From assembly GCA_024693345.1 (NCBI GenBank), contig JAILLB010000033.1:1-33605 (forward strand): DNA of 33,605 nucleotides, read 5' to 3'. The notes beneath the pieces are model-generated. The model was not told the origin of the DNA. It saw only the letters and a program-made list of their open reading frames with translations, and searched no databases. A program made the translations under genes and the position numbers. The stretch's first letter is position 1; each line of letters starts with the position of its first letter. This stretch comes from Clostridiales bacterium. Its GTDB lineage: Bacteria > Bacillota > Clostridia > Oscillospirales > CAG-272. Positions 30,723-33,605 of this stretch are shown here, piece by piece.

Positions 30723-31175
30723 TTATGTGTTTTCTTTTGAAACTTCAGATATTTTTTCTCCGCGCATTGAAGTGAATTTTTCACGAAGTTCTTTAATCAG
30801 TTTAAAATCTCTTTCGGAGTAGCGTTTGTATTCCTCGATATTGAGATACTCTTTTCTTGTTCTTCCTAACGATGTAGTTTTATAACTGATTCCCCAGCTC
30901 CAGGGATGATAGTCAGTCATGAATATATCGCTATTAGGTCTGTCTGCAAGTGAAAAGACTCTTTTCTTTTCCAGAAACTCTTCAAACTGTTCAACAGCAT
31001 CCGGTGAAACCGAATATGTCGTTGTAATTGTAGGCTCTCTGTAGTATTCACGGTCGGTCGAGACATATATCCAGTCGCCATCTTTACTTTTTTGCAAAGA
31101 TATTTCGTGATATTCGCCTCTCATATCTCCATAGCCAGGGCTATAGCAGATGCTATCAAGTTTTATTTCTTTCAT
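30723..31175 (-). CDS. Hypothetical protein
   Basis: RBS GGAGG then ATG (MKEIKLDSICYSPGYGDMRGEYHEISL...). 21 nt upstream of the GH94-like gene on the same strand. Start moved from 31199. Confidence 0.6.
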   Translation of the reverse strand: MKEIKLDSICYSPGYGDMRGEYHEISLQKSKDGDWIYVSTDREYYREPTITTTYSVSPDAVEQFEEFLEKKRVFSLADRPNSDIFMTDYHPWSWGISYKTTSLGRTRKEYLNIEEYKRYSERDFKLIKELREKFTSMRGEKISEVSKENT

Positions 31176-31304
31176 GGGTCCTCCGGGATATGTGTTCAAT
31201 TAATTTTACAAAAAACGATATGTATTGTCAAAGACAAAATGGGTGTTTCTTCACTCATCGAACCAAGTTTTTGTTTCCATGTTTACAGAATATCTCTTTT
31301 TTTC

Positions 31305-31333
31305 TTTACCGGTACATCATTATTTGATATAAT
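31305..31333 (+). promoter_or_regulatory. Sigma-A-type promoter for the ABC exporter gene
   Basis: TTTACC, 17-bp spacer, TATAAT. Confidence 0.6.
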
Positions 31334-31364
31334 CATCTTACAATTAAGAAAAGAGGACACTAGA

Positions 31365-33326
31365 ATGGGACCAGGCGGACCGGGCGGACCAAGATTCGGC
31401 GTTAATGAACAAAACAAAGAACCAAAGCCCCAAAGTATTAAGGAAGTGCCCGGATATGTATGGCGAGTCATATCTAAGTTTTTCTACAGGCTCTTTTACA
31501 TATTCAAGTTGGTTTGGGAAACAAATCCATTAATACTCATAGCTTTGCTGTTGTTTGCTTTGCTGACAGGTGTTATCCCAGTTATTTCTTCAATCGTATC
31601 AGCTAATGTACTGAACACTCTGGCAAGGGATTACACAATTGCTCAGACAATCGGAGGCAACTTTGATGACTTGATGAACGATGTGATGAAATTGCTTATA
31701 TGGCAGTTTGTCATTATATTCGGAACAAGTCTTATAAACCACGTAAGAACAACTGTTACTAGAATTGCAGGAGATCTGGTTTCAAACCACGTCACTGTAA
31801 AAATAATGAAAAAAGCCAAGGAAGTTGACTTGGCCAGTTTTGACAGACCGGATTTTTACGAACGCTTTGAGAACGCGTCAAGAGAAGCCAACTCAAGACC
31901 GCTTCAGATTCTTTCATCCACTTTCTCAATCGTAAGTACTGTAATAAGCGTCGTTTCATATGTCATAGTCCTCTGGTCTGTAAGCGCATGGGCGCCATGG
32001 GTTATAATAGCCATGTCCATTCCATCTGCCATCATTTCATTCTCATACAGAAGAAAGTACTGGTTCTATATGAGACACAGAAGCAAGGACAGAAGACAGT
32101 TATCCTATTACTCAGGCCTTTTGACAAACAAGGACATGGTAAAAGAAATAAGAATGTTCGATTTGTCAGACACTCTCATAGACAGACATCAGTCAATATT
32201 CAAAAAGTATTTTAAAGGACTAAGACGTTTGTTTCTTGCAGAAGGTGCATGGAATATGGGCATTGCAGTTGTCCATTCACTTGTAAACTGCCTGTTGTTC
32301 ATTTTCATTGCGACGGGTGTTGTAAGAGGCGACACACAAGTAGGTAACTATTCTCTGTACACAGGTGCTTTAAGTTCTATTTCAAACGGTGTCTCATCAT
32401 TCATTGCCACGACGGCATCAATTTATGAAGGCACACTGTTCATTGACAACCTCATTCTCTTTATGAACGAAAAGAGAAACATACGACCAATTTCCGACGA
32501 GCCTGTACATGTCAAGAGACATATTCCCCACGAGATAGAACTCAGAAACGTATCTTTCAGATATCCGGGCTCAGACCATGATGTAATCAAAAACATCTCA
32601 TGCACAATAAAAGCAGGCGAAACAATTGTACTCGTAGGCTTAAACGGAGCCGGTAAAACAACCCTGATTAAGCTTATAACACGTCTGTATGACCCTACCG
32701 AGGGAGAAATCTTCCTTGACGGAATAAACATCAAGGAGTACGATACACAGGAACTCTATTCCATCTTCGGAATAACGTTCCAGGACTTCGGTAAATATGC
32801 AGTAACAGTCAGAGAGAATATTGCGTTTTCCAACATAAAACAAGAAATTGATGAGGAGAAAATTCAGAAAGCTGCCCGTGAAGGTTATGCTGAGGAGTTC
32901 ATAAATAAACTGCCGTACAAGTATGACACACCATTGATGAAATATTTCGAAGAAAACGGTATAGAACCATCAATAGGACAGTGGCAGAAATTATCTGTAG
33001 CTCGTGCTTTCTATTCTGATTCAGACATCCTTATTCTCGACGAACCGACCGCTTCTCTTGACGCAATTGCCGAACAGGAGATTTACGATCAGTTCGACGA
33101 ACTCAGAAAAGGCAAGACAACGATATTTGTTTCGCACAGACTTTCAAGTGCGACAACAGCTGACAACATCATAGTAATCGATGAAGGCAGACTCATAGAA
33201 TACGGACCTCACGCAGAGCTGATGAAGAATCACGGAAAATATTACGAGCTCTTCTCTACTCAGGCGCGCAGGTACATAACCAATAAAGATTCAGAAGGCA
33301 TTAACGAAGGAAATACACGTCAATAA
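31365..33326 (+). CDS. ABC transporter, fused permease/ATP-binding (exporter type)
   Basis: AGAGGACAC RBS then MGPGGPGGPRFG... TM domain, Walker A GLNGAGKTTL, Walker B ILILDEPTASLDA, H-loop VSHRLSSA. Start moved from 31092. Confidence 0.92.
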   Translation: MGPGGPGGPRFGVNEQNKEPKPQSIKEVPGYVWRVISKFFYRLFYIFKLVWETNPLILIALLLFALLTGVIPVISSIVSANVLNTLARDYTIAQTIGGNFDDLMNDVMKLLIWQFVIIFGTSLINHVRTTVTRIAGDLVSNHVTVKIMKKAKEVDLASFDRPDFYERFENASREANSRPLQILSSTFSIVSTVISVVSYVIVLWSVSAWAPWVIIAMSIPSAIISFSYRRKYWFYMRHRSKDRRQLSYYSGLLTNKDMVKEIRMFDLSDTLIDRHQSIFKKYFKGLRRLFLAEGAWNMGIAVVHSLVNCLLFIFIATGVVRGDTQVGNYSLYTGALSSISNGVSSFIATTASIYEGTLFIDNLILFMNEKRNIRPISDEPVHVKRHIPHEIELRNVSFRYPGSDHDVIKNISCTIKAGETIVLVGLNGAGKTTLIKLITRLYDPTEGEIFLDGINIKEYDTQELYSIFGITFQDFGKYAVTVRENIAFSNIKQEIDEEKIQKAAREGYAEEFINKLPYKYDTPLMKYFEENGIEPSIGQWQKLSVARAFYSDSDILILDEPTASLDAIAEQEIYDQFDELRKGKTTIFVSHRLSSATTADNIIVIDEGRLIEYGPHAELMKNHGKYYELFSTQARRYITNKDSEGINEGNTRQ

Positions 33327-33327
33327 C

Positions 33328-33605
33328 CCATGATTGAAATCACGGGCTTGAAAAAGCAAGTGAAGAAATCAGCTACGTAAGTAGATTGTTGACTACCCTA
33401 AGTCTTGAGACAAAGACTACGTTGGTTTAATTATCACACCTGCAGACGTTTGTCCTAATCTGCAGCACTGTGGTTCGTTATTAAAAGTCCCGATGGGTAA
33501 GGACGGTGTGGCGAACGAGTAAGTTTTACCAACATTGGGGAAGGGCACATAACGGTAAGATGTGTACCGGCTTACAGCATTAAAACACATCAAAAACAAA
33601 GGAAA
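33328..33605 (+). ncRNA. Structured RNA, candidate HEARO/IscB-type omega-RNA (or IS605-family left end); continues to or past window edge
   Basis: Nested helices GTTGGT/ACCAAC, CACACC/GGTGTG, CTGCAGA/TCTGCAG, GTCC/GGAC, AGTCT/AGACT, CTAC/GTAG, CACAT/ATGTG, plus crossing GTTCG/CGAAC and CGGTA/TACCG. Non-coding on the + strand. Preceded by ATGA at 33330. Ends in purine-rich aaaggaaa. Confidence 0.6.

Follow-up and report, generated by a model that had tools for sequence, protein, structure and literature searches.

We found that the window, a stretch of 33,605 nucleotides that forms the entire contig C5 of a 2.03-Mb, 126-contig assembly of a Clostridiales bacterium, almost certainly ends with the left part of an IscB insertion element carrying an omega-RNA. 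The explanation that we regard as likely is that of an IscB element inserted at a start codon, with the Shine-Dalgarno (SD) region of the interrupted gene as guide and a mobile ribosome-binding site at the right end. From comparison of sequences we also incline, more cautiously, to the general view that HEARO-type IscB elements are start-codon transposons, which would take the start codon as target and TAM and the SD region as guide and would return translation to the gene through a hairpin-bridged ribosome-binding site, leaving insertion into operons, even before genes essential in E. coli, nearly neutral and the landing site protected. The HEARO RNA itself is of an already known kind; new, as far as our literature search goes, are the start-codon boundaries and the SD/hairpin architecture of the right ends in this clade. 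The features of the window, all on the plus strand, are as follows.

31092..33326 (+), upstream host gene, ABC transporter (PF00005, 103.7 bits; list of open reading frames)
33303..33318 (+), presumed guide segment: the 16 nt of flank that adjoin the left end on its 5' side, with the native SD GAAGGA of the downstream gene
33319..33605 (+), left part of the IscB insertion element, up to the contig break at a collapsed repeat (homology to about ten genome copies from 33318/33319; empty site)
33319..33553 (+), HEARO/omega-RNA scaffold (Rfam RF02033, 132.5 bits; covariation in 33 homologues)
33319..33393 (+), outermost helix 33319-33325/33387-33393, enclosing the left-end hairpin and 33347-50/33357-60 (Rfam, covariation)
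33327..33346 (+), left-end hairpin CCCATGATTGAAATCACGGG, containing ATGA at 33330-33333 (sequence, Rfam pairs)
33421..33533 (+), long-range helix 33421-33431/33523-33533 (Rfam and covariation; seven of ten pairs changed on both sides)
33440..33465 (+), hairpin 33440-33446/33459-33465 (Rfam and covariation; 93% paired)
33473..33516 (+), hairpin 33473-33481/33508-33516 with inner 33487-33490/33501-33504 (Rfam and covariation)
33553..33591 (+), possible H-type pseudoknot, 33553-57/33565-69 with 33559-64/33586-91 (compensatory change in paralogues)

A search of Rfam with the last 287 bases of the window matched positions 33319-33553 to the HEARO family (RF02033) at 132.5 bits against a gathering score of 83 (E 1.5e-27), and the model was covered over its full length (1-211 of 211). 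We aligned 33 omega-RNAs, namely that of the window, three other copies from the same genome and 29 loci of other genomes. Of the Rfam pairs, 66 are present in the window; across these homologues they are 87% paired, changes on both sides are seen in 39, and the score for covariation amounts to 0.466 compared with 0.193 for shuffled and at most 0.105 for slid controls. The outermost helix is 95% paired, with four of its seven pairs changed on both sides, and the same holds for eight of the nine outer pairs of hairpin 33473-33481/33508-33516. The omega-RNA structure is real, far beyond chance, and membership in RF02033 is borne out both by the score over the whole model and by a consensus structure maintained by covariation.

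The original prediction, made from the letters of the sequence, of a HEARO or IscB omega-RNA at this edge was right, as seen from the covariance-model match that it had proposed as a check, the covariation and the presence of iscB in paralogues. The sequence words on which it was built all occur, each where it had been placed or within about 1 nt, and five of its helices coincide with HEARO consensus pairs: GTTGGT/ACCAAC (33421-26/33528-33), CTGCAGA/TCTGCAG (33440-46/33459-65), GTCC/GGAC (33487-90/33501-04), CTTG/CAAG (33347-50/33357-60) and AGTCT/AGACT (33401-05/33414-18). The covariation test that it had called for supported the 66 consensus pairs, but not two others of its pairings. CACACC/GGTGTG conflicts with the Rfam model, in which 33508-33516 pair with 33473-33481, and covaries no better than shuffles, while CACAT/ATGTG is lost in paralogues, which favour GATGTG (33559-64) with CACATC (33586-91). 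The latter pair is replaced by GGCGTG/CACGCC, a compensatory change, in paralogues C79 and C102, and these few sequences weakly suggest that GATGTG/CACATC may be pseudoknotted with CGGTA/TACCG. The proposed CTAC/GTAG stem falls within a hairpin insertion (33361-33383) that is absent from the Rfam model. Because the outermost helix had been overlooked, the start of the RNA had been set at 33328, 9 nt downstream of the true start at 33319. The ATGA at 33330-33333 exists as described, but it belongs to the left-end hairpin CCCATGATTGAAATCACGGG, which has its twin in CCCACGACTGAAGTCACGGG at the right end, and the reading of this ATGA as the RTGA integration motif is rejected because the empty site puts RTGA 3' of the right end of the element.

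The element sequence of the window recurs about ten more times in the genome with 88-99% identity, and contigs break inside it. Altogether there are about 11 elements: seven full, one divergent and three that possess the RNA without iscB. For the long form, seven left and seven right ends were counted, with complete copies on C27 and C35, five unpaired left ends (C5, which is the window, C14, C26, C118 and the start of C35) and five unpaired right ends (C85, C77, C11, C51 and C80); the one divergent complete element is that of C33. The short elements without iscB comprise a complete one on C79 and two cut at a contig end (C74, C102), C107 being one of their left ends. RNA-only copies (e.g., L021:1933-2278, which is C79 of this genome, and L024, L023 and L025) have the omega-RNA fused directly to the right end, and they could serve IscB in trans as a source of guides. 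The distribution of HEARO is sparse and patchy: it was detected in eight of 398 genomes of the window's family, and it occurs in four of 399 genomes from the phylum of a Muribaculaceae record, a lineage that makes little use of SDs, two matches there lying on contigs shorter than 3 kb suspected to be misbinned.

The complete element of C27 is 1613 nt long, encodes a 425-aa IscB from element position 304 and is 99% identical to the element part of the window. As the latter stops at element position 287, the contig ends about 17 nt short of the expected iscB start. An ORF had been predicted to begin just outside the window, and iscB does so in C27, where it starts 17 nt past the position that corresponds to the window's end; the window's own copy falls into an assembly gap at that place (element positions 288-722, comprising the first 140 codons of iscB). 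Its C-terminal half, with HNH motif and frame intact, is assigned to contig C85, which starts inside iscB. The C27 protein contains the RRXRR and HNH Pfam domains and scores 341 bits with the NCBIfam guided_IscB profile (cut-off 175), and its closest solved relatives are IscB chains, OgeuIscB among them. Paralogues C27, C35 and C33 all have an intact iscB, i.e., an ORF with RuvC/HNH domains directly downstream of the RNA, and residues D60, E156, H218/H219, H307 and D310 are invariant in the three when aligned to solved IscB.

The assignment of C85 to the window's element rests on the empty site of one relative and not on reads, and it should be taken as probable in that sense. The ABC-transporter gene of the congener G004, 81% identical to the left flank of the window, ends 4 nt ahead of an ATGA and runs into a right flank like that of C85, with no element between them. 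The right flank of C85 is 72% identical to that of G004 over 1466 bases, and none of the other right flanks compared with the G004 site rose above noise. The junctions read ...AACAC|ATGACAATCATTGAAAAC in G004, ...AATACAC|GTCAATAACCC... in the window and ...GAGCCTAGATATC|ATGAAAATCATCGAAAAA on C85. It follows that the element spans GTCAA to GATATC and was inserted without target duplication, one C being ambiguous. On C85, it directly adjoins, on the 5' side, an ATGA that opens an ORF of 360 codons. Judged by the empty site, the insertion lies exactly between the SD region and the ATG(A) start codon of the gene downstream of the ABC transporter, and the left flank in the window ends with GAAGGAAATACAC, which would suit the C85 gene well as an SD. 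The ABC-transporter frame enters the element by 8 nt and ends on the TAA of the latter (33324-33326); compared with G004, this gene thus gained a few C-terminal residues.

As is usual for IscB, the RNA would start in the left flank of the element, which would act as the guide. For the window we took the guide to be 16 nt long, the length presumed for IscB. The empty site consists of the left flank followed by ATGA, RTGA stands at all right boundaries of the genome, and the anatomy corresponds to the IscB layout, in which the guide is the 5' flank and the TAM lies 3' of the empty target. It is therefore quite probable, as far as this anatomy can tell, that the left flank with its SD region serves as the guide and the RTGA start codon as the TAM, both being presumed assignments. 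Such a guide would have unexpected content, namely an SD and a spacer. Elsewhere in the genome, no intact site with the window guide and NTGA was found at zero or one mismatch.

With regard to movement, both features of the IS200/IS605 type that can be read from the ends were detected, i.e., subterminal hairpins at the two ends and the lack of target-site duplication at the empty site, whereas a tnpA gene is absent from the 1613-nt C27 element. Two full Y1 tnpA genes lie elsewhere in the genome, at L053 (C116) and L054 (C97), the C97 one being followed by a TnpB-like ORF; this makes mobilisation in trans possible, and we consider that the elements are probably mobilised by a Y1 transposase in this manner. 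Contig C63 (L055, about 1189-1220) bears the hairpin motif of the IscB elements in opposite orientation near the contig end. The loci on C63, C116 and C97 are candidates for mobilising IscB elements in trans.

Every copy in this genome is followed at its right boundary by ATGA or GTGA, and in nine of 11 cases this is the first codon of a gene. These genes encode HPF/YfiA (C79), a TIGR04076 protein (C80), YhbY (C33), Lgt (C35), a peptide that we take, from our own reading of its sequence, to be SCIFF (C74), lipoprotein-like products (C11 and C102), a glycosyl hydrolase (C51) and the C85 product, and the profile alignments of several of these proteins begin at the first residues. As for the remaining two boundaries, that of C77 has a GTGA that falls 4 nt short of the ATG of a phd-like antitoxin gene, which is followed by a doc-like gene (L049), and that of C27 faces a broken hepT-like ORF. 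Only 2% of the RTGA sites of the window are at gene starts, or about 20% once coding sites are excluded. A similar picture was obtained for Duodenibacillus massiliensis, which has 21 HEARO matches and long ORFs opening at 17 of 19 located right boundaries. NCBIfam profiles (SerC, LplT, LolC/E, NtrC and others, a histidinol-phosphatase-like HAD protein among them) align there from their first residues at the ten boundaries tested, so that these boundaries are real start codons. Set against the non-coding background of about 20%, the counts for the two genomes correspond to p ~2e-5 and p ~3e-9, the latter computed with a conservative 16 of 19. D. massiliensis also contains internally deleted copies of 596, 779 and 1129 nt.

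The comparison took in about 80 relatives, and the claim covers the HEARO-like IscB clade; distant IscB (30-43% identity) of Ligilactobacillus, Pseudoalteromonas, C. difficile, Nostoc and Shewanella plasmids, considered by annotation only, stand outside it. When the elements of the different species were taken together, 36 of the 58 boundaries were followed by an open frame that had 80 codons or more or reached the contig end, compared with 22.6% of 5637 control sites (p 1e-10), and 14 of 35 elements combine an open right frame with a left-flank SD of at least 4 nt, compared with 6.9% in the control (p 3e-8). Among five unrelated plasmids, the PGAP start of the next gene coincides with the boundary on three, those of Finegoldia, Anoxybacillus and Cetobacterium, but not on those of Natranaerobius and Paenibacillus. 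About 40% of the boundaries across species open no long ORF, and a start codon is thus not required for insertion; it is, in turn, strongly favoured among the insertions that survive. Insertion at start codons is in our judgement very likely. Four copies of Sutterella (L144, L146, L151 and L161) show ATGG instead of RTGA after the right boundary; they form a related subgroup in which the target/TAM is shifted but begins with ATG as before.

The right ends of nearly all elements retain a common layout: (GA)AAGGAG(G), 0-8 nt, a stem, TTCCT, a hairpin, (G)NTCC, the closing strand of the stem, 6-10 nt and the start codon. All 14 pairs of the bridge stem and inner hairpin changed on both sides, with a score of 0.621 against 0.186, and 46 of 48 right ends match an SD over 4 nt or more beside the stem. 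This SD is found in each of the three iscB frames and, four times, downstream of the iscB stop codon, so that the protein does not account for it. The median distance from SD to start codon is 52 nt when measured linearly and 10 nt (interquartile range 8-11.75) when the stem is closed. Predicted bridge closure has a median of 0.96, while the predicted probability that the SD is unpaired is moderate (median 0.39). The right end is also retained in RNA-only copies. A natural test of its proposed function as a ribosome-binding site is offered by L102 of Sharpea porci, where, compared with L115, the hairpin has been lost and AAGGAGG is kept 15 nt from the start codon. Right-end sequence and predicted structure are those that a split ribosome-binding site would have, and this comparative evidence leads us to favour, with moderate confidence, a right end that works as the ribosome-binding site in place of the displaced one. 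The covariation taken alone is no proof of a role as RNA, because a TnpA-type transposase also needs the hairpin, as single-stranded DNA. Our literature search on HEARO with ATGA/GTGA and on IscB with start codon or Shine-Dalgarno retrieved no description of the right end, although the founding papers may contain one.

The course of events that we propose would begin with an RNA whose start lies in the left flank and which carries the SD region of the disrupted gene as its guide. IscB from any intact copy would then cut element-free alleles with RTGA as TAM, and repair from the sister copy would restore the element, which would provide for its persistence and spread. Transcription would read through the omega-RNA and iscB into the downstream gene, where the right-end hairpin would fold away the intervening sequence and leave the SD of the element about 10 nt from the start codon, so that this SD could drive translation of the gene. 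If this reading of the right end is true, the elements could sit before housekeeping genes without silencing them, which would explain up to about 20 copies before such genes in a 2.4-Mb genome. In this way a mobile element would restore translation to the very gene that it has interrupted, by a logic like that of a self-splicing intron, applied at translation initiation.

The right-end hairpin and the purine-rich motif might, instead, be only DNA signals of transposition, in which case the excess of start codons would result from the RTGA target combined with selection against intragenic insertions, which would leave the surviving ones in intergenic DNA with its many start codons, and the SD would be incidental. 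Ends of the IS200/IS605 type require subterminal hairpins, the left and right ends here share one, no long ORF begins at the RTGA sites of some elements, and the predicted accessibility of the SD is modest. We nevertheless hold this to be unlikely, as with about 20% of non-coding RTGA sites at gene starts it does not account for nine of 11 and 17 of 19 boundaries, nor for an SD motif that is not part of the hairpin, has a constant bridged distance and occurs in any iscB frame. It is also at odds with Sharpea porci L102, where AAGGAGG persists at 15 nt from the start codon although the hairpin is gone, and with homologues of lepB, lolC/E-type genes and serC that have been parted from their own SD. 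These genes are essential or conditionally important in E. coli, and their homologues must hence be translated from something despite the loss.

Two further explanations concern the downstream gene itself. Ribosomes that finish iscB, whose stop codon often falls within the right-end hairpin, could re-initiate at the nearby start codon, and a stop 28-35 nt ahead of the start codon in several elements would suit such translational coupling; it is nonetheless very improbable, given that RNA-only copies without iscB keep the right end before the genes for HPF, SCIFF and a lipoprotein, and that the iscB stop precedes the SD in some elements. Least credible of all, and scarcely to be entertained, is a domesticated element whose RNA acts as an attenuator- or riboswitch-like cis regulator. 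An RNA with so much structure, placed immediately before genes that run in the same direction, would fit this idea, yet nearly identical copies face different downstream genes, and the loci resemble recent transposition with empty sites and not vertical inheritance.

Set beside known systems, the RNA of the window is the same as the HEARO motif (RF02033; Weinberg, 2009), with a match over the full model and an HNH/IscB ORF downstream. Unlike that motif, the window copy includes the hairpin insertion, and RTGA is here mapped to the right boundary. OMEGA IscB systems (OgeuIscB, PDB 7utn/7xht; OrufIscB) share with the present elements the RuvC/HNH protein with a PLMP N-terminus, the omega-RNA 5' of iscB, a guide expected from the left flank and a TAM on the right. 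The elements described here differ in that they encode a smaller protein (417-425 aa), are multicopy and have RNA-only derivatives. IscB is the ancestor of Cas9. The TAM of OgeuIscB is NWRRNA, with which ATGAAA is compatible. The presumed TAM in our elements, read from 11 boundaries, is RTGA, and published TAMs differ from it, that of OrufIscB being NTAAA (PMC13180657). Similar to IS200/IS605 elements, both ends have subterminal hairpins, the target is short and exact, and there is no target duplication; in contrast to them, the IscB element has no internal tnpA and its target motif lies 3' with respect to the iscB-coding strand, so that it would be reversed relative to a tnpA/tnpB element. 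As for the right end, the closest likeness that we can name is with genes 38 and 25 of phage T4, proven cases in which an intervening hairpin brings a distant SD close to the start codon, from 22 to 5 nt and from 27 to 11 nt, respectively (PMC3014915). The resemblance is one of analogy and not of homology, as the arrangement is fixed in two phage genes in T4, whereas in our case a transposon would bring it to numerous genes of the host.
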